In this document: one piece after another, positions 27,664 to 38,091 of the stretch
How positions within the stretch are numbered: position 1 is the first letter of the stretch
How the letters are laid out: every line of letters begins with the position of its first letter
Source: a virus
DNA length: 41,486 nt
Virus record (IMG/VR): IMGVR_UViG_3300020419_000031
Coordinates: 1-41,486 of that record
Direction: 5' to 3' (one strand)
Notes under the pieces: generated by a model
The model's database searches: none
What the model was told of the DNA's origin: nothing
What the model saw: only the letters and a program-made list of their open reading frames with translations
Made by a program: the position numbers and the translations under genes

Positions 27664-27930
27664 ATGGAAAACTTTATTAACATTGTATTTGATCAAAAAG
27701 AAGAAATAGACGACATAGTTGTATCCGAAGTAGCAACATCGGCCTCAACAGCATTAATGGAAGATGAAACAGGTTATCAATTATATGAATCAGATAAAGG
27801 ACAAACAGTTTTAACGGTTGAAACACATGTTCAACTAAACGAAGAAGAATCAAATGAGATGGCAAAAAAAGTTGCAAATAAATTATTTGATTTGGGTTAT
27901 AATAACTTTGATATTGAGGTAAGTGTTTAA
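27664..27930 (+). CDS. Hypothetical acidic protein
   Basis: 88 residues, strongly acidic, with AGGAAA nine bases upstream of ATG. Possible ferredoxin-like alpha/beta element (DKGQTVLTVETHVQLNEEES, then MAKKVANKLFDLGYNNFDIE). One-base overlap with the next gene suggests co-translation. No family recognised. Confidence 0.55.
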   Translation: MENFINIVFDQKEEIDDIVVSEVATSASTALMEDETGYQLYESDKGQTVLTVETHVQLNEEESNEMAKKVANKLFDLGYNNFDIEVSV

Positions 27931-29447
27931 TGCGGTTCAATGCATTTAGAAAAAACTTATTAGAAAGTGAACAGGATGAAATCTTGTCAATTAACGACAA
28001 GGTAAAGGACCTAGCACAAAGAGATCCTAAAGCACTAGACTATGCCATAGATGCTATTAAAAAGGCAAGACAATATGCACAAAAAATAATAGCAAATGCA
28101 AAAAGATCGCCTGCTCCTAAGCCAGAGGTTGGAGAAGCCGCAGAAGGAACAGCCGGAAAATTATCCATACTAAGTCAAGAGATTGATGCAATGGAAAAAG
28201 AAATTGCGGAAATATGTCAATTACTGGGTGAAAAGTGTGAAGGCGCAGTTGTAAATCTCAAAAAGTTTTTATCAGGCCTTTATGGTAAAATGGAGGACTT
28301 GGTTTCTTCTGGTAAGCAGGAAGGTGCCGAAGAAGAAAGACAAGAATTCAAAAAATGGTATAATGGATTAGGTGCAAAACTGTTGAAGCTAGGACAAAAA
28401 GCAATTAGTCACGTTGAAGTAACTGCTGAAGAATTAAAAGCCCTTTCATCTACTGAAAGATCTAAAGTTAAATCATCACAGATCAATGCTAATAAATTTG
28501 CAGAAGAATTAGGAAACTCTTTAGAAACTTTGTTTTTGAAAGTTTTATTTACGGATGCAGGAAAAGATTATAATATAACAATTAAAGATGTTGATACATT
28601 TTTAGATGAAGCATACAAAGGTACTGTTATTAATAACCAAGAGCTGGTAGCACGAGACTCGGGACTAATAGATGATTTTGTAAACAAACGTAGCAGAAAA
28701 GTATATGATGCTATTGCAGGCCCAGTTGTAAAACTAAAACCACCTGCTTCAGGCGGAGCAAATATTGGTCCAGGAGAGTTGGCGTTGGCCATGCTTGGTA
28801 ACCCTGCCGCAAAAGCAGACAAAGGTGACATACAAGTCGGCGATGATATGTATGAAGTAAAAGCAGGTGCTGGATCAGTAGGTGGTAGATTTAACAGTGA
28901 TAAGGTTACTACAGCACTTAACGGATGGAAAGTATGGGATAGAGGGTTAGAAGAAATAGCAGGTCAGGGTGTAATACTTAGAGATAAAAATGCCAAAGGT
29001 AAAGATAGATCTTTATATAATTTTAACAATACAGGAATAGAAAAAGTAAATTCAGAAATATTAAAAAAGTATAGCGACCCAGAAAAAACAAAAAAATGGT
29101 TAACAAAAACTTTTGAAAGATTAGTAACAAATCACTCCGAACTTCCTAATATGGAAAGTTACATAGATTCAATGATTGTAAAATCCGATGATCCTGAGTT
29201 AAACGGTACTATAGATGAAAAAACATATATGAACTTGTATGCTAGATTATTATACGATAGTTATAGTAAAGCAGATGGTGTTACAAATATTATTATAATT
29301 GACACTAAATCAAGAACATATAGAATAATAAGAGATTCAGAAGACTTAGGTGCAAAACTAGGTCAAAAAGGTGGTGTAAGAACTTCAGGTGGATTTAACT
29401 GGAATGATAACCATCAAAAAGCAAGTCCGCAATTTGTTACAAATTAA
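27930..29447 (+). CDS. Putative packaged protein with PD-(D/E)XK-like domain
   Basis: 505 residues. The N-terminus MRFNAFRKNLLES fits a capsid-targeting peptide with a prohead-protease site (LLE|S, after residue 12). Residues ~15-190 are helical. At ~285-315 there is a nuclease-like signature: NIGPGELALAMLGNP followed by KGDIQVGDDMYEVKAGAGS, where D, E and K of GDI..YEVK match the PD-(D/E)XK core. The C-terminal 200 residues include FERLVTNHSELPNMESY and end in QFVTN. It could be a nuclease injected with the genome. Nuclease fold and packaging are both inferred. Confidence 0.6.
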   Translation: MRFNAFRKNLLESEQDEILSINDKVKDLAQRDPKALDYAIDAIKKARQYAQKIIANAKRSPAPKPEVGEAAEGTAGKLSILSQEIDAMEKEIAEICQLLGEKCEGAVVNLKKFLSGLYGKMEDLVSSGKQEGAEEERQEFKKWYNGLGAKLLKLGQKAISHVEVTAEELKALSSTERSKVKSSQINANKFAEELGNSLETLFLKVLFTDAGKDYNITIKDVDTFLDEAYKGTVINNQELVARDSGLIDDFVNKRSRKVYDAIAGPVVKLKPPASGGANIGPGELALAMLGNPAAKADKGDIQVGDDMYEVKAGAGSVGGRFNSDKVTTALNGWKVWDRGLEEIAGQGVILRDKNAKGKDRSLYNFNNTGIEKVNSEILKKYSDPEKTKKWLTKTFERLVTNHSELPNMESYIDSMIVKSDDPELNGTIDEKTYMNLYARLLYDSYSKADGVTNIIIIDTKSRTYRIIRDSEDLGAKLGQKGGVRTSGGFNWNDNHQKASPQFVTN

Positions 29448-29790
29448 ATTCTCTATCTAAGTATTTGTGATCTGTTTTTACTGGTTCAAACTGTTTCAAA
29501 GCATCAAAGACAATATTCTTTTCTAAATCACTACAAGTATACACATCCAATTGTACAAGTGCAGGACTCTGTTCGTCCCAAACGTGTATGGCAACATGAC
29601 TTGTCTCAATAATTGTAACACAGGTTATTCCCCTGTTACCTTCCATTTCACAGTACTTTGCATATGGACCCATCATTATTTTCATACCAATTTTTTCTAT
29701 TAAGTCTTTAGCCCATTTGATAATTTGAACCTCATTTTTAGGAGGTAGATTTACTTCAGATCGTACTATTAGGTGTTTATGTTGCAACAT
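29437..29790 (-). CDS. speD: S-adenosylmethionine decarboxylase proenzyme (SpeD-like)
   Basis: 117 residues, the size of short prokaryotic SpeD. Key residues are present: Ser64 (future pyruvoyl) and His65 in CVTIIETSHVAIHVW, His69, and Cys86 in LDVYTCSD. In most SpeD proteins the residue before the Ser is Glu; here it is Thr with Glu one place earlier. The enzyme makes decarboxylated SAM for spermidine synthesis; polyamines neutralise packaged DNA. It is a lone minus-strand gene with a perfect TATAAATA box and AAAAGGA ribosome site upstream, and converges on the packaged-protein gene with 11-base overlap. Confidence 0.82.
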   Translation of the reverse strand: MLQHKHLIVRSEVNLPPKNEVQIIKWAKDLIEKIGMKIMMGPYAKYCEMEGNRGITCVTIIETSHVAIHVWDEQSPALVQLDVYTCSDLEKNIVFDALKQFEPVKTDHKYLDREFNL

Positions 29791-29811
29791 TAAAGGTCCT
29801 TTTTTAGGTTC

Positions 29812-29819
29812 TATTTATA
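29812..29819 (-). promoter_or_regulatory. Late promoter TATAAATA for speD
   Basis: The minus strand reads TATAAATA, identical to the T4 late -10 consensus, 22 bases before the speD ATG. It is the only exact 8-base match among the boxes listed here. Confidence 0.6.
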
Positions 29820-29837
29820 TTCGGGTTCACCTTTACA

Positions 29838-29865
29838 TTGACATATCTTGATAAATACTTATAAT
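29838..29865 (+). promoter_or_regulatory. Sigma70-type promoter with TAAATA in the spacer
   Basis: TTGACA at 29838-29843 and TATAAT at 29860-29865, 16 bases apart. The spacer contains GATAAATAC (TAAATA 29852-29857), so a late promoter could overlap the early one. Drives the gene at 29888 (AAGGA ribosome site at 29876). Confidence 0.7.
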
Positions 29866-29887
29866 ATAACATAATAAGGATGTTACC

Positions 29888-30883
29888 ATGTCAAAAACAT
29901 TTAAAGATTATCTTAAAGAAACTGGCTTACAATACCATACTGGTGTCAAAAAACACGGTAAAAAGTATATGGTTAAAGCGGCTCAGGCAGGACGCGATGG
30001 TGCTAGCCAAGAAGAATTAGGTCGCCTAAAGGACAAATATAGCAAAGCAGAGAAAAAGACCCAAGAGGGATTTGATAGATCTAGTGTAACATGGGAAGAT
30101 CTAAAACCACACGTAATGCTTGTTCAAAAAAAGATACTTATGGACATTGAAGAAGCGGAAAAAGAAATTGCAGATTTAAAAGCAGGTGGAGACGACGGCG
30201 AACCAGGTGGCGACATTTATGAGATTGAGCCTTACTTAAGAGATCTCAAAGACATGCTAGAATATCCTAAGCATATATTACAAAATCCAAAAATGGATAT
30301 AGAGACTATTGTTGATCATATGATGCCAACTGGTTTAGATACTTCAGTAAGAGAAGATCTAATTGGTAGATTTAAAACTGTTATAGGCCATAAAGATCCA
30401 CAATTAGCTAAAAGATTATTTATGGATCCAGAACTTGATTTTTATGCTCAGGGTAAGGCTAGAGACGGTGCTTTAGACGGAATAAAAGACAGTATTGATC
30501 CTGAATTAGAAAGAATTAAAGAACTTGCTGGTGCAAGTATTGACGAAACATACGATGACGATGATGATTTTTATGATGCATATGGCGAAATGTGGTATAA
30601 TGAAGATGACGTTATGGACGAAGCAGAATACCAAGGACGTAAGGTTCAACTCGGTAAACCAATGCAAGGTGATGTTAAGAAATTTAAGGTATATGTAAAA
30701 GACCCTAAAACAGGTAATATTAAAAAAGTTAATTTCGGTCATGGTGGATCAAGCGTTAAGGGTAAAGCAATGAGCATCAAAAAGAATAATCCAAAAAGAC
30801 GCAAGAGCTTTAGAGCAAGACACAACTGTGATAACCCAGGTCCTAGAACAAAAGCACGTTACTGGTCATGTAGGAAGTGGTAA
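29888..30883 (+). CDS. Putative head-packaged protein of unknown function
   Basis: 331 residues. The start MSKTFKDYLKETG resembles the T4 capsid-targeting peptide MKTYQEFIAE in nearly every position (K-T-aromatic-x-acid-aromatic-aliphatic-x-E). The middle is helical and acidic (EEAEKEIADLKAGGDDGEPG; DDDDDFYDAYG-like run near 225). The C-terminal ~100 residues are basic and end in FRARHNCDNPGPRTKARYW then SCRKW, a Cys/Trp tail that I recognise in other marine T4-like proteins. No enzymatic motif. Has its own early-type promoter. Confidence 0.6.
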   Translation: MSKTFKDYLKETGLQYHTGVKKHGKKYMVKAAQAGRDGASQEELGRLKDKYSKAEKKTQEGFDRSSVTWEDLKPHVMLVQKKILMDIEEAEKEIADLKAGGDDGEPGGDIYEIEPYLRDLKDMLEYPKHILQNPKMDIETIVDHMMPTGLDTSVREDLIGRFKTVIGHKDPQLAKRLFMDPELDFYAQGKARDGALDGIKDSIDPELERIKELAGASIDETYDDDDDFYDAYGEMWYNEDDVMDEAEYQGRKVQLGKPMQGDVKKFKVYVKDPKTGNIKKVNFGHGGSSVKGKAMSIKKNNPKRRKSFRARHNCDNPGPRTKARYWSCRKW

Positions 30884-31231
30884 ATGAGAATAGACGAAAT
30901 ACATAAACCCATTAAGGACGAAATACCATACGATGTGCCAAGTGATGTACACTTTCACATGTTGAATGATGAAGGATTTTATCGTAAACATTATTTGCCA
31001 TGTATGGAACTAATGAAGAGTAAAACTAACGAAAAAGTAATTCAAGGGCACATAATGCCAATGATTGATAAGTGTTTAAATCACTATTGTTTGAAATACG
31101 ATATTTCACAAACTCCTAAAGAACTTATGAACACAGGAGAAAAATCAGCACTTGCTATGAAGATATTAGATTTTGAAAGAAATCCAAGAGAGGAATTAGA
31201 TGCGCCTACGTCGACTGATAGAATCTCCTAG
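30884..31231 (+). CDS. Hypothetical protein
   Basis: 115 residues directly after the previous stop (TAAATG). Mostly helical, with a HYLPCMELMKSKTNEKVIQG segment and LNHYCLKYDISQTPKELMNT. The N-terminus MRIDEIHKP is short and similar in style to its neighbours but lacks a good protease site. Its last 32 bases overlap the next gene. Function unknown. Confidence 0.55.
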   Translation: MRIDEIHKPIKDEIPYDVPSDVHFHMLNDEGFYRKHYLPCMELMKSKTNEKVIQGHIMPMIDKCLNHYCLKYDISQTPKELMNTGEKSALAMKILDFERNPREELDAPTSTDRIS

Positions 31232-32678
31232 CACGGCAGTATTTGCCTTTGGAAGAATGAATCCTCCAACACTAGGACATAGAAAACTTGCAGACAAGGT
31301 AAAAAGCCTAGAGGGCACTCCTTTTCTATTTTTAACACATTCACAAAAACCTAAAACTGATCCACTTTCTTTTGCAGAAAAAGTTTTCTTTGCTCAAAAA
31401 AGTTTTGGTGACGGTATACGTATTGGTGATCAAGATGTAAAAACAATAATACAAGCTCTACAAAAATTAGAATCATTAGGATTTAAGAATGTTGTTTATG
31501 TCGCAGGTAGTGATAGGGTTAACAGTTTTACAAAACTATTGAATGATTACAACGGAAAAGATTATAATTTTGATAATATACAAATAGTAAGTGCAGGCGA
31601 AAGAGATCCTGATGCCGAAGGTGCTGAAGGTATGAGTGCTTCCAAAATGAGGTCAGCGGCACAAGAAGGTAACTATGACGAGTTTGAAAGTGGAGTTGCA
31701 GTAAAAGATCCTAAACTGGCAAAGATGATGTATACTAAAGTAAGGCAAGGAATGGGTCTAGACGAAGCAAATGACACAATGGGCGGTGGCACTGACTTTT
31801 CTAAGTTTATGGGATATAAACCAGGTGATGCAAAAAATCCTAATAGACTATTACCTAAAATAGTACAACCTAATTTAGGCACGCAGAGTAAGCCAATAAA
31901 AGTTCCTAAGATAGACGGTAAAGATTATTATTACGAAAATAGATCAAGCAAGAATCCATTTGTAATTACAACTGTAGAAGACTTCCAACGTACTGATGAA
32001 GCTATTTGGTTTTATCCATTGTTAGCTATTGGTGGTAGATTAGGATTTAAGTATGGAGCTAAATCACTCAAATATATAGGACGATGGATGAAAGGAAATC
32101 CAGGTAAGACATTTGGTGGATTTACCCTTCCATGGACTGGTCCTATTTTAGCTAGGATAGTAGAATTTATAATGAAGGCATTTGGTTTTCTATCAAGATT
32201 TGGTATTCCGATTGCTATTGGGGTTATTGCTGTATATGGTGGGAAAAAACTATATGACGCTTTGAAAGATAAAGATCCTAAAGAGATGACAGAAAAAGAA
32301 TTAAAAAATATTTTATCGAAATATGCTCCAAGAAGTGATGATGATTTAAAACCCTTACTAAAAAAGCAACCTAAAGAAGACACGAATATAGATGAATACG
32401 AAGTTAAGCAACAAAAACCAAAGATTGATGTTTTAAATAATATTGCATCTAGAAAAGATAATACAGCCTTTCCTTTGAGTTGGAATTCAGGTAAAGGCGA
32501 AATTTCAGTAGGTGGAAAAATGTATGTAGATCCTAATACTGCAAATAAATTTGTAAAGTTTTTTGATAACAACAAAGACAAACAAGACGCTATGGTACAA
32601 GCATTAAGAAGTGCAACTACTACAGCTAAACTTTTTGATGTTTTAGGATTGCCATATAATCTACGAATGGAAAAGTAA
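31200..32678 (+). CDS. TxGH nucleotidyltransferase fused to a membrane-segment C-terminal region
   Basis: 492 residues; GAGG six bases before ATG. The first 8 residues plus site (MRLRRLIE|S) look like a capsid-targeting peptide. Residues ~12-185 are a nucleotidyltransferase: AVFAFGRMNPPTLGH with T24-x-G26-H27, VVYVAGSDRV, and MSASKMRSAAQEGN equivalent to ISSTxxR. Residues ~265-345 contain hydrophobic segments (WFYPLLAIGGRLGFKYGA; FGIPIAIGVIAVYGG) that could cross a membrane. The last ~100 residues are a small soluble region. Unusual for a nucleotidyltransferase; possibly injected and membrane-attached. Confidence 0.7.
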   Translation: MRLRRLIESPSTAVFAFGRMNPPTLGHRKLADKVKSLEGTPFLFLTHSQKPKTDPLSFAEKVFFAQKSFGDGIRIGDQDVKTIIQALQKLESLGFKNVVYVAGSDRVNSFTKLLNDYNGKDYNFDNIQIVSAGERDPDAEGAEGMSASKMRSAAQEGNYDEFESGVAVKDPKLAKMMYTKVRQGMGLDEANDTMGGGTDFSKFMGYKPGDAKNPNRLLPKIVQPNLGTQSKPIKVPKIDGKDYYYENRSSKNPFVITTVEDFQRTDEAIWFYPLLAIGGRLGFKYGAKSLKYIGRWMKGNPGKTFGGFTLPWTGPILARIVEFIMKAFGFLSRFGIPIAIGVIAVYGGKKLYDALKDKDPKEMTEKELKNILSKYAPRSDDDLKPLLKKQPKEDTNIDEYEVKQQKPKIDVLNNIASRKDNTAFPLSWNSGKGEISVGGKMYVDPNTANKFVKFFDNNKDKQDAMVQALRSATTTAKLFDVLGLPYNLRMEK

Positions 32679-32890
32679 TGGATATAAAGACATTACAAAA
32701 GTTAGCAGGCGTACACGAATTCAAAGGCTATGAACCTGTTAGCCTAGAAAATATTAGCCATACTGCACATGAATTAAAACAAAAAGAAAAAAGGTTAGGA
32801 GTCAAACCAGGTGATGCTGATTGGTTTAAACTTTGGTTTTCTAAGCCATATCTAAATGGCCCTATACAATTTAGAGGACGAAAAAGATGA
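32678..32890 (+). CDS. Small conserved hypothetical protein
   Basis: 70 residues, overlapping both neighbours by one and four bases. The C-terminal half DWFKLWFSKPYLNGPIQFRG is rich in aromatic and basic residues, a pattern I recall from marine T4-like phages. The start MDIKTLQKLAGV resembles other short leading peptides in this block. No predicted membrane segment. Function unknown. Confidence 0.55.
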   Translation: MDIKTLQKLAGVHEFKGYEPVSLENISHTAHELKQKEKRLGVKPGDADWFKLWFSKPYLNGPIQFRGRKR

Positions 32891-35409
32891 AGTGGCACAA
32901 AATTACAGAAGCAGTTGGTATCATAACAAAACAGAATCAAACTGTTGATGTAGGTCCAAACGAAATAAAAAAACAGGCGGCAAAATTTGGCTTCAAAGTT
33001 GACAAGGGTGGACGGCCTGCAACACTAAGTAAAAAAGTGAAGGGTTCTAAAACAAACGTTTTATTCAATTTAGGAATGGCAGAAAGTATTCAAGAAGTAA
33101 CAGCCAAAGATCTAAGTAACGAGTCTGAAATATATGTAGACATGGATGGTGTTTTAGCTGACTTTTTTGGTGCTTGGAAAAAGTTAGTTGGTAAGGACTG
33201 GAGAGAAATAAAAGATCTTGATGGTGCTTTACAAAGAATAAGAGATAAGGATGATTTTTGGTTAAACATTCCTGTTACTCCTAATGCAATGAACTTGTTA
33301 AATCTAGTAAAGCAACTCAAAGGAAAGTATAATATTTTAAGTGCTCCACTTCCAAACGATCCTAATTCAGAACCACACAAAAGACAGTGGATAGAAAATA
33401 ATCTGTCACAGTTTCCGCCAAGCAAAGTTATAATAACGTCAAACAAATCAGTACACGCAACACAGCCAGACGGAACACCTAACATATTAATAGACGACTT
33501 TGGTAAGAATATTGCCAAATGGGAAGCGGCTGGTGGTGTAGGATTCAAACACAAAGATCACAAGTTCGAAAGAACAGTTAAAAACTTAAAAGCATACATG
33601 AACAAACCTGTAGAAGAAGCACCAGAAGACGAAATCAATAAAATGAAGCAAACCGCAACTGCTATACAAAAAGCTCAAAGTATGATGAAGCCTAGGTATA
33701 TGTCAAGAATAGCGGCTATGGTGGAAGAGGATTTTGAAGCTATTAGAGACGCCGCACTTAAAAGATATAAAAAAGCTAATGGCAAAATAGATCTTTACAC
33801 AGCTTATACAATGGCTATTGAAGATGAGTTTCCGGAAATACCTAATCCTATTGTAGTGTTCCAATATATGACAGATCCTATACCTGATCATGAAGACCTT
33901 GTACCACAGGATGCTGAAGATGGTAGCTGGGCAGATAGAGCAGATAAAGAATATCAACAAAAAGTAAAATCTAGTCCTAAGGGTGGCGGGTTTGATGGTA
34001 AAATCAAAGGTAGATGGTTTGCTATCAGAAGAGATAGAGACGATTATATGGATCAGGGAATGGAGCCAGAAGATGCTTTAGACAAGGCGGCTGAAAGGCA
34101 TGGTGTAGATCCTGAAGAGTTACAAAGATGGATAGAGGCAGGCAATGCCACTCCTAGAAAAGAAATGACTGAAAAAGCAGTTAGTAAAAAGCAACAACAG
34201 TTTTTTGGTATTGTTAGGGCAATGCAAAAAGGTGAAATGCCTAAAGGTGGAGAAGCAGGAGACGTTGCAAAGGATATGAAAAAGTCTGATGTTAAAAAGT
34301 TTGCTTCCACAAAGCACAAAGGCTTACCTAAAAAGAAAAAATCAGAAAGTTATACAAGAGATCAACTTCCACAAATACATAAAAAACATTTAGAATACAT
34401 ACCACATAAGATTGTTAGTATTAAGGTAGAAAGCATTGTGCCTGTACAAAAAGAAAGAATTAAAGAAAACTATACTAAACAATTGAAGAAAATTGCAGGT
34501 GGAAAATATGCGCCTATCGTAGTTGATAATACAAATAGAATTATAAATGGACATCATAGATATGATGTTATTAAATTATTACAAATGGAATCAATTAGTG
34601 TTGCTAAACTTCCTTATACATTAGAATTTTTGATAGAACTTACTAGAAGAAATTTTATGAAAGGAGCTGGAGCGGCTTTGGCTTTTTCAGCAGTACCTAG
34701 TGCAGTAAAGGCAATGTCAAATACAGATGGTGAATTAATTGTTAAAACAAGCACAGGAAAAGAATTTGATATAACAAATTTTCCGGGATCAGTAAAAGAA
34801 AAGATAGAAGCATTTAAAGAAAAAATTAAAAAGGTATATTCTCAACATAAAAATGTAGCTGTACCTGATTTCAAATTTTACTTAAACGGGAAGTACATAG
34901 GACAAATTAAACATATTGGCAACATATACAAAGAAACAAATGAAGGTGAATTAATTCCTAATCCACAAAGAAGTGTGTTGGTGAAGAAAAATGACGGATA
35001 CGATCATTATAAACTTGCCACACATATGGCAAACATAAAAAAAATGTCGCCTGAAGTTGTTGCTAGAGACAAACAGGATATATTTGTGCAATTCTACGGT
35101 GGTGAAAAAGAAAAAAATTACATGATGAAAAATCTTAAGAGATTAGGTTTTGGTGTGCAAGATGCTGACGGATATCGAGATACCCATTTTGATGAAAATT
35201 CCGAAGATAGTTATGTATTAAAAATACGTGAAAATTTTGCTGACGGTAAGAAAAAAGGTCGTAAGGGATTGAGTAAAAGAGTGGGTATTCCTAAAAGTGC
35301 AAGTGTTACACAATTACGTAAAATTGCAAGTAACAGCACAGGCGAACGCAGACGAATGGCACATTGGCAGGCAAATATGAAGTCAGGAAGAAAAAAGAAA
35401 GGTAAATAG
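32887..35409 (+). CDS. Large multidomain protein: HAD phosphatase, DUF3008, ParB-like, twin-arginine-like segment
   Basis: 840 residues. Order: start MKWHKITE|A (possible capsid-targeting peptide); an N-terminal region to ~80; HAD/5'-nucleotidase-like domain at ~81-240 (YVDMDGVLADFFGAW, Asp85 and Asp87; LIDDFGKNI); helical linker; DUF3008-like module at ~430-484 (VSKKQQQFFGIVRAMQKGEM, KFASTKHKGLPKKKK); ParB/sulfiredoxin-like domain at ~510-580 (IVVDNTNRIINGHHRYDVIK); a twin-arginine-like segment at 586-608 (TRRNFMKGAGAALAFSAVPS); unknown domain; basic C-terminus (GERRRMAHWQANMKSGRKKK). Frame is open throughout. Likely multi-purpose injected protein. Domain calls are by eye. Confidence 0.65.
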   Translation: MKWHKITEAVGIITKQNQTVDVGPNEIKKQAAKFGFKVDKGGRPATLSKKVKGSKTNVLFNLGMAESIQEVTAKDLSNESEIYVDMDGVLADFFGAWKKLVGKDWREIKDLDGALQRIRDKDDFWLNIPVTPNAMNLLNLVKQLKGKYNILSAPLPNDPNSEPHKRQWIENNLSQFPPSKVIITSNKSVHATQPDGTPNILIDDFGKNIAKWEAAGGVGFKHKDHKFERTVKNLKAYMNKPVEEAPEDEINKMKQTATAIQKAQSMMKPRYMSRIAAMVEEDFEAIRDAALKRYKKANGKIDLYTAYTMAIEDEFPEIPNPIVVFQYMTDPIPDHEDLVPQDAEDGSWADRADKEYQQKVKSSPKGGGFDGKIKGRWFAIRRDRDDYMDQGMEPEDALDKAAERHGVDPEELQRWIEAGNATPRKEMTEKAVSKKQQQFFGIVRAMQKGEMPKGGEAGDVAKDMKKSDVKKFASTKHKGLPKKKKSESYTRDQLPQIHKKHLEYIPHKIVSIKVESIVPVQKERIKENYTKQLKKIAGGKYAPIVVDNTNRIINGHHRYDVIKLLQMESISVAKLPYTLEFLIELTRRNFMKGAGAALAFSAVPSAVKAMSNTDGELIVKTSTGKEFDITNFPGSVKEKIEAFKEKIKKVYSQHKNVAVPDFKFYLNGKYIGQIKHIGNIYKETNEGELIPNPQRSVLVKKNDGYDHYKLATHMANIKKMSPEVVARDKQDIFVQFYGGEKEKNYMMKNLKRLGFGVQDADGYRDTHFDENSEDSYVLKIRENFADGKKKGRKGLSKRVGIPKSASVTQLRKIASNSTGERRRMAHWQANMKSGRKKKGK
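35403..35408 (+). promoter_or_regulatory. Late promoter-like TAAATA, overlapping a stop codon
   Basis: GGTAAATAG ends the previous gene (TAG, 35407-35409) and is five bases from ATG 35414. No Shine-Dalgarno. Same geometry as 21531 and 27303. Confidence 0.45.
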
Positions 35410-35413
35410 TAAT

Positions 35414-36754
35414 ATGCTTTTACGTGAACTAACAAATAATATACAAAGACCAGTTTTAAAAGAATTTGGCGTTCCGGCTTGGCTCGCTATAGATCAACTT
35501 TTTGGAGCCAGTCCAGCAGGTGAATTTAGCGACATGAGTCCAATGTCACAGTTTTATGGCGGACTATCTATGAAACCACAATTTAAAGATCAAGCCGCTG
35601 ACTTGGCAAGAGAATTCCAACAAAGATTAGCAACAGAAGGACCTACGCCAGAAATAATGAATATGTATAAAGGTGCAACTGGCAGAGACCTACTTGCAGA
35701 TCATCCTGGTTTGAAAGCTATTACAAAAAGCATATCTCAACCAACTAGCAGTAATATAAAGCCAAGACCAAACGGCGGTCATGCTAGACGTAATTGGGAT
35801 AAACGTCATGGTAAAACACATAATCCAGATGGAACACCTAAGGTTGCAACGCAACCCGATACAACAACAAAAGTAGAACCTAATGCTGGACCTAACACAC
35901 AACCAAGAGACGGCGGTAATCCAGGAGGTGTTACAACTTCAACTGGTAACACAACTGTTGCTCCTACAGGAACTGATACGGCACCTAAGGTAACAACTGT
36001 TGCACCAAACCAACCAGGATCAAATACGACAGGTGGTGGAACAGCACCTATTATTGCACCCGCAACAAAACCTAAAATAAGCACAGCACCTAAGTTAACA
36101 CAACCAGCAGTGAAGGATCCAACAACTATGATCCCCCAAGTTGGAAATGTTGTTAAGCAAGGAAGCGAAATGGAATTAGCTAAAGAACTTTCCAAACCTA
36201 ACTGGGCAAGTAATTTAGGAGACACATTATCAAAGCATACAGGTATGTCCGGAGGTGATATATCTAAGTTTGCATCACGGGTAGGAAAATATGCAATACC
36301 GGCAGGTATTGTACTTGCACTATTATATGGTGGATCTAAATTAGTAGGTGCAATGTCTGGGAAGAAAAAGAAAAAATTAAAAGCTATGGGAGATAGAAAT
36401 GCTATGGCTAAGATGATGGGAGCTACTGCTTTACCAGGAAAAGGTGGCGGTGATTTTATCAAATCACCAACTATGCCAGATGTTGACTCTGGTGTAACAA
36501 GTAAAATTATGTCAAAATCCCCAAAGGGTACAGCTTACAAACCACCTAGTTCACCAATGGAGACAGCAACAGCAGGAGCCACATCAGCGGGTAATATCGC
36601 CAGTGTTGCGAATCCTAAACAAGCATATGGTCACAGAAGACGTGACGGAAAAGGTATACCCAAGGCACCACAAAAGATGAATCCAGACGGTACAGCTAAA
36701 AACGCCTTAGATATAAGCACTAATCTTATGGGCGGCGAAGCAATAAAAAGATAA
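35414..36754 (+). CDS. Low-complexity membrane-segment protein of unknown function
   Basis: 446 residues. A folded-looking start (MLLRELTNNIQRPVLKEFGV; PAGEFSDMSPMSQFYGGLSM) is followed by a ~120-residue Thr/Pro/Gly/Asn-rich linker (about 115-235, e.g. TKVEPNAGPNTQPRDGG). Then an amphipathic region and one probable membrane helix at ~295-313 (YAIPAGIVLALLYGGSKLVG), followed by the basic run GKKKKKLKAMG. The C-terminus is basic (AYGHRRRDGKGIPKAPQKMN). Could be a structural or ejected protein that inserts in the host membrane. No family recognised. Confidence 0.55.
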   Translation: MLLRELTNNIQRPVLKEFGVPAWLAIDQLFGASPAGEFSDMSPMSQFYGGLSMKPQFKDQAADLAREFQQRLATEGPTPEIMNMYKGATGRDLLADHPGLKAITKSISQPTSSNIKPRPNGGHARRNWDKRHGKTHNPDGTPKVATQPDTTTKVEPNAGPNTQPRDGGNPGGVTTSTGNTTVAPTGTDTAPKVTTVAPNQPGSNTTGGGTAPIIAPATKPKISTAPKLTQPAVKDPTTMIPQVGNVVKQGSEMELAKELSKPNWASNLGDTLSKHTGMSGGDISKFASRVGKYAIPAGIVLALLYGGSKLVGAMSGKKKKKLKAMGDRNAMAKMMGATALPGKGGGDFIKSPTMPDVDSGVTSKIMSKSPKGTAYKPPSSPMETATAGATSAGNIASVANPKQAYGHRRRDGKGIPKAPQKMNPDGTAKNALDISTNLMGGEAIKR

Positions 36755-36757
36755 ATA
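36752..36757 (+). promoter_or_regulatory. Putative late promoter element (AGATAAATA)
   Basis: TAAATA in AGATAAATATAT overlapping the previous stop codon, with GAGGA (36763-36767) and ATG at 36775 following in normal order. Confidence 0.5.
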
Positions 36758-36774
36758 TATACGAGGAAGATAAA

Positions 36775-38091
36775 ATGCGTGAAAAAGACCTAAAAGAAGA
36801 TTTAGCAACAATGGCTTACAAAGCTGAAGCAGACCATGAAGTACAAATGGTTAAAGCTGACTTATATAAAATTGCAAAATATTCAATTAAACTACATGAA
36901 ATGTTTAAAATGGTTTCAGAAGAGCAAGGTGTTGAGGGTTGGGTGCAATCTAAGATTACTAAAGCCGCTGACTATATGGGATCTGTTTATCACCATTTAG
37001 ATTACGAAATGAAATTTGACGAAATGCTTGAAAACAAAACACCAAAAGTTGAAATGGGAGAAGCTAAAAAGAAAATGGTTAAGGATCCTAAAACAGGAAA
37101 AATGGTTCCTTCATATGCTATAGATGGTAAGGGCAAAGATGATCTTACTAAAGAAGAATTAAATTCAGATGATAAACCAGCAGTAAAAGACGTTGTAAAA
37201 TCATTAAAAGGTGCTTCTAAGGCACATGCTAACCAAGCCAAAGAATTAGATAAAGCACTAAAAGATAAAGTAAAAAAAGAAGATGTAGACCTCTACATTA
37301 AGAAGTTACATGCTAATGGTTATTGTGTAGATGAAATAACAGAAATCTTAGAATGCATGACAGAAGCTGATGACTTAACCATGGGTGGTATGCTAGATGA
37401 TCAAGGCAGATATAACCCACACTGGAATAGAAAAAATCCAATGGGACAAATAGAAAAGCCCAAAAAGAAAACAGCAAAAGGTCAAAAAAAAGGTACATCT
37501 GTAGCAGTTAAAAAACCTAATGAAGCAAAACAACATCTTGATACTGTAATAATTGAATTACATAAAAAAGATTATACCTTAGACCAAATAACAGAAATTG
37601 TTGCACTTGCTCCGATGATAGGAAAAAGTGTTGTTGCTCCTTTGGCAGTAAAAGGTGCCGTGGGTGGTGCTAAGTTGGCTGGAAAAGGTATAGCTAAGGT
37701 GGCTAAGATTGTAACTGGTAAAGGCAAAAAAACACCTACACCTAAACCAGAATCAATTGACACTATATACACCAACAGACTATCAGAACAGTTAGACGAG
37801 AAAAAGAAACAAAAAGGTCTTTATCATAATGTGAATAAACGTAAAAAAGCAGGCACAAGTAGATCCAAAAATCATCCAGATGCTCCTAGTGAAAAGGACT
37901 GGAAGAATGCGGCAAAAACTGCTAAAGAATCTGTAGAAGGCGTTTGTACAGAATGTGGTAACCCGAGTTACACAACACTAGACGAAAAAAAGCAAAAAGG
38001 TGTTGACGGCAAAGTATGTTGGAAGGGTTACAAACGTATGGGCACAAAGAAAAAGGGCGGTAAGACTGTAGACAACTGCGTTAAGATGTAG
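36775..38091 (+). CDS. Conserved hypothetical virion-type protein with Cys/Lys-rich C-terminal tail
   Basis: 438 residues. The first ~80 are helical (ADHEVQMVKADLYKIAKYSI; WVQSKITKAADYMGSVYHHL), a module that I recall from other T4-like marine phages. Two short related helical repeats follow: YIKKLHANGYCVDEITEILE at ~184 and VIIELHKKDYTLDQITEIVA at ~258. A Gly/Ala/Lys stretch (VVAPLAVKGAVGGAKLAGKG) could be membrane-active. The C-terminus has CTECGNPSYTTLDEKK and CWKGYKRMGTKKKGGKTVDN then CVKM, with four Cys that might bind metal. Function unknown; likely packaged or structural. Confidence 0.55.
   Translation: MREKDLKEDLATMAYKAEADHEVQMVKADLYKIAKYSIKLHEMFKMVSEEQGVEGWVQSKITKAADYMGSVYHHLDYEMKFDEMLENKTPKVEMGEAKKKMVKDPKTGKMVPSYAIDGKGKDDLTKEELNSDDKPAVKDVVKSLKGASKAHANQAKELDKALKDKVKKEDVDLYIKKLHANGYCVDEITEILECMTEADDLTMGGMLDDQGRYNPHWNRKNPMGQIEKPKKKTAKGQKKGTSVAVKKPNEAKQHLDTVIIELHKKDYTLDQITEIVALAPMIGKSVVAPLAVKGAVGGAKLAGKGIAKVAKIVTGKGKKTPTPKPESIDTIYTNRLSEQLDEKKKQKGLYHNVNKRKKAGTSRSKNHPDAPSEKDWKNAAKTAKESVEGVCTECGNPSYTTLDEKKQKGVDGKVCWKGYKRMGTKKKGGKTVDNCVKM

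Follow-up and report, generated by a model that had tools for sequence, protein, structure and literature searches.

Candidate T4-type capsid-targeting peptides on a shuffling set of enzymes in a T4-like marine phage

The stretch of DNA analysed here (the window) is a 41-kb virus fragment (41,486 nucleotides), IMG/VR record IMGVR_UViG_3300020419_000031. Its genes include a clamp loader, thymidylate synthase, PhoH, tail fibres, a Clp-like ATPase and the start of a DNA polymerase, and its source appears to be a T4-like marine myovirus. Flanked by the Clp-like gene region on one side and the DNA polymerase on the other, with no head genes adjacent, is a block of genes (27930-38091), several of whose large products begin with a short peptide ending in a Glu. 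We consider it probable, at about 85%, that these peptides are T4-type capsid-targeting sequences on a shuffling set of enzymes loaded into the phage head. The kind of mechanism is already known from T4; the new elements are the 8-residue form of the peptide, cargo that is large and enzymatic, and the link to the virion proteomes of marine phages.

In the proposed mechanism, the block would encode at least five non-homologous, mostly basic and often multidomain internal head proteins. Each would start with a tag of 8-12 residues, namely a short amphipathic stretch in which two hydrophobic or aromatic residues are spaced by three, with [ILV]-x-Glu behind it. The tag would bind the prohead core and so build the protein into the prohead, a gp21-type protease would cut after the Glu and free the enzyme inside the head, and the freed enzyme would be ejected along with the DNA. 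The cargo in question (a nucleotidyltransferase of the CoaD/NMNAT fold, a HAD nucleotidase joined to ParB-like and basic modules, and a possible nuclease) would then act on host nucleotide/NAD pools, DNA or transcription ahead of phage gene expression. Core binding, cleavage and an enzymatic role are what we infer, injection of the cargo is probable, and the specific functions are offered as hypotheses.

The initial annotation quoted four such N-termini, at 27930, 29888, 31200 and 32887, and all four are exact in the window sequence. The observation is real and extends further than described: a fifth tagged gene, 36775, starts with MREKDLKE↓D (the arrow marks the predicted cleavage site), and the protein at 35414 has the targeting half of the peptide, MLLRELT, with the cleavage Glu absent. 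The coordinates are collected in Table 1.

Homologues were taken from IMG/VR and from phage records. Among distinct N-termini, [ILVMF]-x-E is kept in 28 of 31 members of the nucleotidyltransferase family (31200), in 19/21 of the HAD family (32887), in 12/13 of the 36775 family and in 10/11 of the 27930 family, whose consensus is MR[FY]xxFK..[LI]xE. No homologue of 27930 was found by tblastn in phages or in a first IMG/VR scan; an alignment-based query gave 16 loci. The pattern in related phages, which the initial annotation had proposed to look for and whose lack in homologues it had counted as a refutation, is present. The nucleotidyltransferases begin with MxLRELFE↓A in the clade of the window and with MKKFSAFLTE↓A or similar in cyanophages. 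Their alignment (A4) has 23 invariant columns, among them Glu8 and the active-site GRxNP and GH, and the linker behind Glu8 differs in length and sequence. Pairwise differences in this peptide at codon positions 1, 2 and 3 are 0.365, 0.128 and 0.555, the third about four times the second, in a test whose regular expression preselects conforming peptides, the unselected homologue list being the fairer count. Selection appears to act on the peptide, not on the RNA.

The phrog_7595 domain of 29888 trails the tags MSKTFKDYLKE, MKTFQEYLKE↓A, MTKTFKDYLLE↓A and MKKFKQYIDE with different middle sequences, so tag and cargo seem to be separate modules. Three phages have the tag immediately ahead of the conserved start of their DUF6267 proteins; in S-SZBM1 it is missing. 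Smaller homologues of 35414 start with MLIRELFIE↓A and MKLREITE↓S. By these comparisons, the tag is apparently detachable and common to non-homologous cargo.

In NC_000866, T4 ipII and ipIII both start with MKTYQEFIAE↓A, in agreement with the T4 sequence given in the initial annotation. In T4 IPIII, residues 4 and 7 serve mainly targeting and residues 8 and 10 processing, and targeting survives the loss of processing (PMC9026906). Peptides resembling the T4 tag are MKKFSAFLTE↓A in P-SSM7, MKNFSSFLTE↓A in S-CREM2 and MLSFKQFVSE↓V in C48C1. MKKFSAFLTE carries F4, F7, L8 and E10, the positions important in T4, and MSKTFKDYLKE (29888), the window tag closest to T4 IPIII, has F5, Y8, L9 and E11 at the corresponding positions. 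The hydrophobic residues at the targeting positions are three apart in 29888 (F5/Y8), 27930 (F3/F6), 31200 (L3/L6) and 32887 (W3/I6). The 8-residue type has L3, L6 and E8, with Leu or Ile in place of the aromatics; 36775 is without the first hydrophobic. The window peptides are 8-12 residues long and sit at the extreme N-terminus, the T4-type expectation being about 8-19.

T4 IPI, IPII and IPIII resemble the proteins of the block in carrying one N-terminal tag, of 10 residues in T4, with aromatic, aliphatic and Glu residues at like distances, on non-homologous, basic cargo. They differ in being small inhibitors (about 95-195 residues), whereas the window cargo has 330-840 residues and consists partly of multidomain enzymes; many tags of the window clade also have only 8 residues, with Leu replacing aromatics (MxLRELFE). 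T4 Alt, an ADP-ribosyltransferase, is a large head-carried enzyme cut by gp21 (PMC9026906) and is of the same kind, although the enzymes in the window are others and no Alt homologue was identified there. Polyvalent proteins and MuF-fused head-packaged effectors (PMC9503650) are likewise multidomain, shuffling and delivered; they travel by fusion to a head protein, whereas a short cleavable tag is proposed for the window cargo.

Virion proteomics of related phages bears directly on one cargo. Homologues of the 31200 nucleotidyltransferase were found in purified virions of S-SM1 (PMC3037559), S-SCSM1 (PMC9602691), S-SZBM1 (PMC9146016) and S-CREM2 (PMC10665884); the initial annotation had named absence from virions as a refutation. 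This family, the cyanophage NMNAT/cytidylyltransferase T4-GC190, is tagged and virion-detected in several phages, and the window copy differs from it in having additional C-terminal modules. In the literature searched, the tag has not been tied to the virion presence of this enzyme. For S-CREM2, all 219 N-termini were ordered by their resemblance to the T4 IPIII tag and checked against the 52 published virion proteins. Of the six at the head of this order, five turned out to be virion-detected (5/52 vs. 1/167, p=0.003), and restriction to 18 non-structural or unknown proteins, by our own sorting, gives p=3e-5. The five are the nucleotidyltransferase (MKNFSSFLTE↓A), a kinase (MKRFDAFLTE↓E), a SAM lyase (MKDFDSFLEE↓F), gp13 (MKDLHSFLTE↓Q) and gp136 (MQTFSMFFSE↓D). 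Across the whole set of S-CREM2 N-termini, a Mann-Whitney test reveals no shift, as expected if the tag is on a minority of virion proteins only.

The head module was read in portal-linked contigs of the window clade. Its order is portal, an 80-residue protein, a scaffold-like gene, a gp21-like protease, a second scaffold-like gene and the capsid protein. The protease is recognised in the clade by sequence resemblance (NANQRVYP...LGEVDHPE), and Pfam finds the gp21-type (S77) protease in HTVC008M, Melnitz and S-CREM2. The Pfam gp21/gp23 models missed the long contigs of the clade; a portal search led to the protease and capsid genes on related contigs. In 37 sequences the clade capsid protein has the site K[YW]L[SAN]E↓[STA], which, from its alignment to T4 gp23, we take to be the maturation site. 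Tags of the 29888 type end in YLKE↓T, YLAE↓T or YLKE↓A, the same form as the capsid site. The 80-residue protein beside the portal, a core protein, starts with MILRELFYFD, sharing MxLREL with 35414 and the nucleotidyltransferases, and the clade protease often starts with MxNLRE. Block and complete head module lie on one large contig in G012; the G004 contig holds the block and the module up to the first scaffold gene, its end falling between portal and protease. Together, the conservation of the peptide, the virion homologues of one cargo, and the clade protease and capsid site support the capsid-targeting interpretation given in the initial annotation.

That annotation argued from the repeated position of the motif in one block. 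A simple rule (Glu at residues 7-12 with one of ILVMF two positions before) bears this out: it is satisfied by 5/8 genes of the block vs. 3/41 in the remainder of the window (p=0.0014). In syntenic blocks the counts are 7/10 in C48C1, 5/10 in G004, 4/8 in G012, 4/9 in Melnitz and 4/10 in HTVC008M, and the six blocks pooled, window included, give 29/55 vs. 103/795 outside (p=2e-11), with block limits drawn by synteny, yet only after the motif had been seen. As a further control, residues 2-16 of every N-terminus were permuted in 300 shuffles and the strict T4-type motif was counted. The window has 3 open reading frames with the motif vs. 0.4 expected (3/300 shuffles reach 3), C48C1 has 8 vs. 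0.7 (0/300) and Melnitz 4 vs. 0.6 (1/300). The bare pattern is weak evidence by itself. As single matches, MRLRRLIE and MKWHKITE have little weight, and they gain it because they are conserved in their families.

Several results weigh against capsid targeting. The head genes are not in the window, so that protease and capsid site are known from relatives. Shuffling reveals no genome-wide motif excess in G009 and G010, the Melnitz and HTVC008M blocks taken singly reach p=0.08-0.09 only, and the loose form of the motif occurs in 6-10% of random internal windows. With the loose motif, the virion enrichment in S-CREM2 is not significant (p=0.12). In S-SZBM1, proteins 191 and 192 escaped detection in virions despite their perfect tags (both are small, and only 30 virion proteins were found in this phage), and protein 139 is virion-detected and untagged. 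The authors of the S-CREM2 and S-SCSM1 proteomes considered that the enzymes could be carry-over (PMC10665884, PMC9602691). Finally, homologues lack the Glu in HTVC008M and G012 and the whole tag in MED4-213.

The most serious competing explanation grants packaging and cleavage but has the proteins stay behind in the head, as core proteins with a structural or DNA-condensing role. Their strongly basic C-termini (isoelectric point 9-11) fit such a role, as do some homologues that consist of the tag and a small domain only. We consider it unlikely, since the catalytic residues of the nucleotidyltransferase are invariant, which mere filler would not need, and T4 IPs and Alt, packaged likewise, are injected (PMC9026906; PMC12373910). 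Decidedly less probable is that the peptides are conserved N-terminal docking helices for tail assembly, a replication complex or the membrane, in which I/L-x-E is incidental and uncut. The location of the block between the Clp-like ATPase and DNA polymerase genes, away from head genes, and the retention of MxLREL with loss of the Glu in 35414 and the G012 nucleotidyltransferase speak for it. However, peptides of this class match the packaging tag of T4 and stand at the start of virion-detected S-CREM2 proteins, and MxLRELF also begins the small gene beside the portal, as MxNLRE often does the protease. The members without Glu are compatible with targeting, because in T4 it stays intact without processing (PMC9026906). 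Chance, which the shortness of the motif, its loose-form background, hydrophobic-basic N-termini and multiple comparisons might suggest, is very improbable within the block because of the position, the shuffling results, conservation in diverged homologues, the match to the T4 tag and the virion data.

The cargo labels of the initial annotation held for two proteins and less well for the third. The 31200 product matches phrog_3041 (4.7e-54), and in its structural model, where residues 1-10 are of low confidence and a high-confidence core follows, Foldseek finds CoaD and NadM (best 3.5e-05). GH at 26-27 is invariant in the family and the SASK motif at 146-149 is conserved; the model points to a CoaD/NMNAT-type HIGH-motif Rossmann-like nucleotidyltransferase. 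The HAD/ParB fusion at 32887 matches NT5C with 26.1 bits (cut-off 24.8) and phrog_620 (1.5e-7). In relatives, nucleotidyltransferases end in a counterpart of its residues 675-838, and C-terminal modules appear to shuffle among the cargo proteins. For 27930, there is no Pfam or PHROG family match and, by Foldseek on the model (first 31 residues of low confidence), no significant PDB match; BFVD gives unnamed phage proteins only. The PD-(D/E)XK label is unconfirmed: the C-terminal domain is a possible nuclease of this type, with D300, E309 and K311 invariant.

Tagged relatives extend the range of cargo. In G004 (L096:13670-15589), a tagged nucleotidyltransferase-like protein is fused to sigma-70 region 4, and a 1019-residue protein of G012 (L209:3354-6413, i.e., G012 303354-306413), starting with MRLRNLFE, has KOW repeats and sigma-70 region 1.1; the two share the tag MRLR[QN]LFE. 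By analogy with T4 Alt, these sigma-70 and KOW regions suggest an early transcription takeover. Whether marine T4-like phages inject a modular arsenal in which one cleavable tag serves rapidly shuffling enzymes, including transcription-takeover proteins, is in our estimate an even bet. The N-terminal part of the 1019-residue protein resembles an ADP-ribosyltransferase by eye only, and this identity is not claimed.

Metabolic enzymes recur in cyanophage virions, and the authors were unable to distinguish cargo from carry-over. A cleavable tag on virion enzymes, if true, would settle this question. The injected protein set of very abundant ocean phages would then be predictable from sequence alone, and tags from further phages would become candidates for protein delivery. 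In the open literature searched, 'capsid targeting' and 'cyanophage' occur together in one review only, and within that literature the link between the packaging tag and cyanophage virion enzymes looks unreported.

Table 1. Features of the block in the window (targeting and cleavage predicted).
Feature	Coordinates	Strand	Remarks
Capsid-targeting-like peptide MRFNAFRKNLLE	27930..27965	+	Predicted cleavage before Ser13; family consensus, 10/11 distinct homologues
505-residue cargo	27930..29447	+	C-terminal domain, invariant D300/E309/K311 (11 homologues aligned)
Capsid-targeting-like peptide MSKTFKDYLKE	29888..29920	+	Predicted cleavage before Thr12; strict T4-type motif
331-residue cargo	29888..30883	+	C-terminal phrog_7595 domain, very basic; last 80 residues pI (isoelectric point) 11.0
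115-residue small protein, conserved in block	30884..31231	+	Window copy without cleavage motif
Capsid-targeting-like peptide MRLRRLIE	31200..31223	+	Predicted cleavage before Ser9; relatives MxLRELFE↓A
492-residue cargo, predicted HIGH-motif nucleotidyltransferase (CoaD/NMNAT fold) with variable C-terminal modules	31200..32678	+	phrog_3041, Foldseek
70-residue small protein, conserved in block	32678..32890	+	No cleavage motif
Capsid-targeting-like peptide MKWHKITE	32887..32910	+	Predicted cleavage before Ala9; M[KR][WLFVI]xx[IL]xE in 19/21 distinct homologues
840-residue cargo: NT5C-type HAD phosphatase, DUF3008-like, ParB-like, basic tail	32887..35409	+	Last 80 residues pI 10.5
Targeting-like N-terminus MLLRELT, no Glu cleavage site	35414..35434	+	MxLREL as in core protein and nucleotidyltransferases
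446-residue basic protein (pI 10.0)	35414..36754	+	C-terminal domain with TAGATSAGN
Capsid-targeting-like peptide MREKDLKE	36775..36798	+	Predicted cleavage before Asp9; [LI]xE↓G/N/D in 12/13 distinct homologues
438-residue cargo, basic C-terminus	36775..38091	+	Fold without assigned family

A test for the T4 late-promoter motif (TATAAATA) was negative, with 2 matches vs. 6.9 expected. Further observations concern single proteins. At residue 386 of the 35414 product, TAGATSAGN recurs, letter for letter, in the N-terminal arm of the mature clade capsid protein (E↓SATAGATSAGN; capsid proteins in L113-L192), and small tagged homologues hold little beyond a domain of this type; a mimicry of the capsid arm is possible. 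Two nucleotidyltransferase starts look misannotated: in C48C1 (L004:23515) an upstream GTG start gives MIKNFSQYLLE, and in S-PM2 (L219:89) an internal Met gives MKRFTNTYVKE. The invariant VKWDGAPA of DUF6267 (L001:44819-46051 and homologues) is similar to the nucleic-acid ligase motif KxDG, and in several phages this tagged ligase-like enzyme is close to the nucleotidyltransferase. Pfam gives no match for S-CREM2 gp12 (L006:7704-10313), which is found in virions and bears the label Cas9; it belongs to phrog_3561 and carries FASFMAE↓A at residue 25. Within the block, on the opposite strand (29437-29790, -), an open reading frame resembles S-adenosylmethionine decarboxylase (ITCVTIIETSHVAIHVWDE), as judged by eye only.

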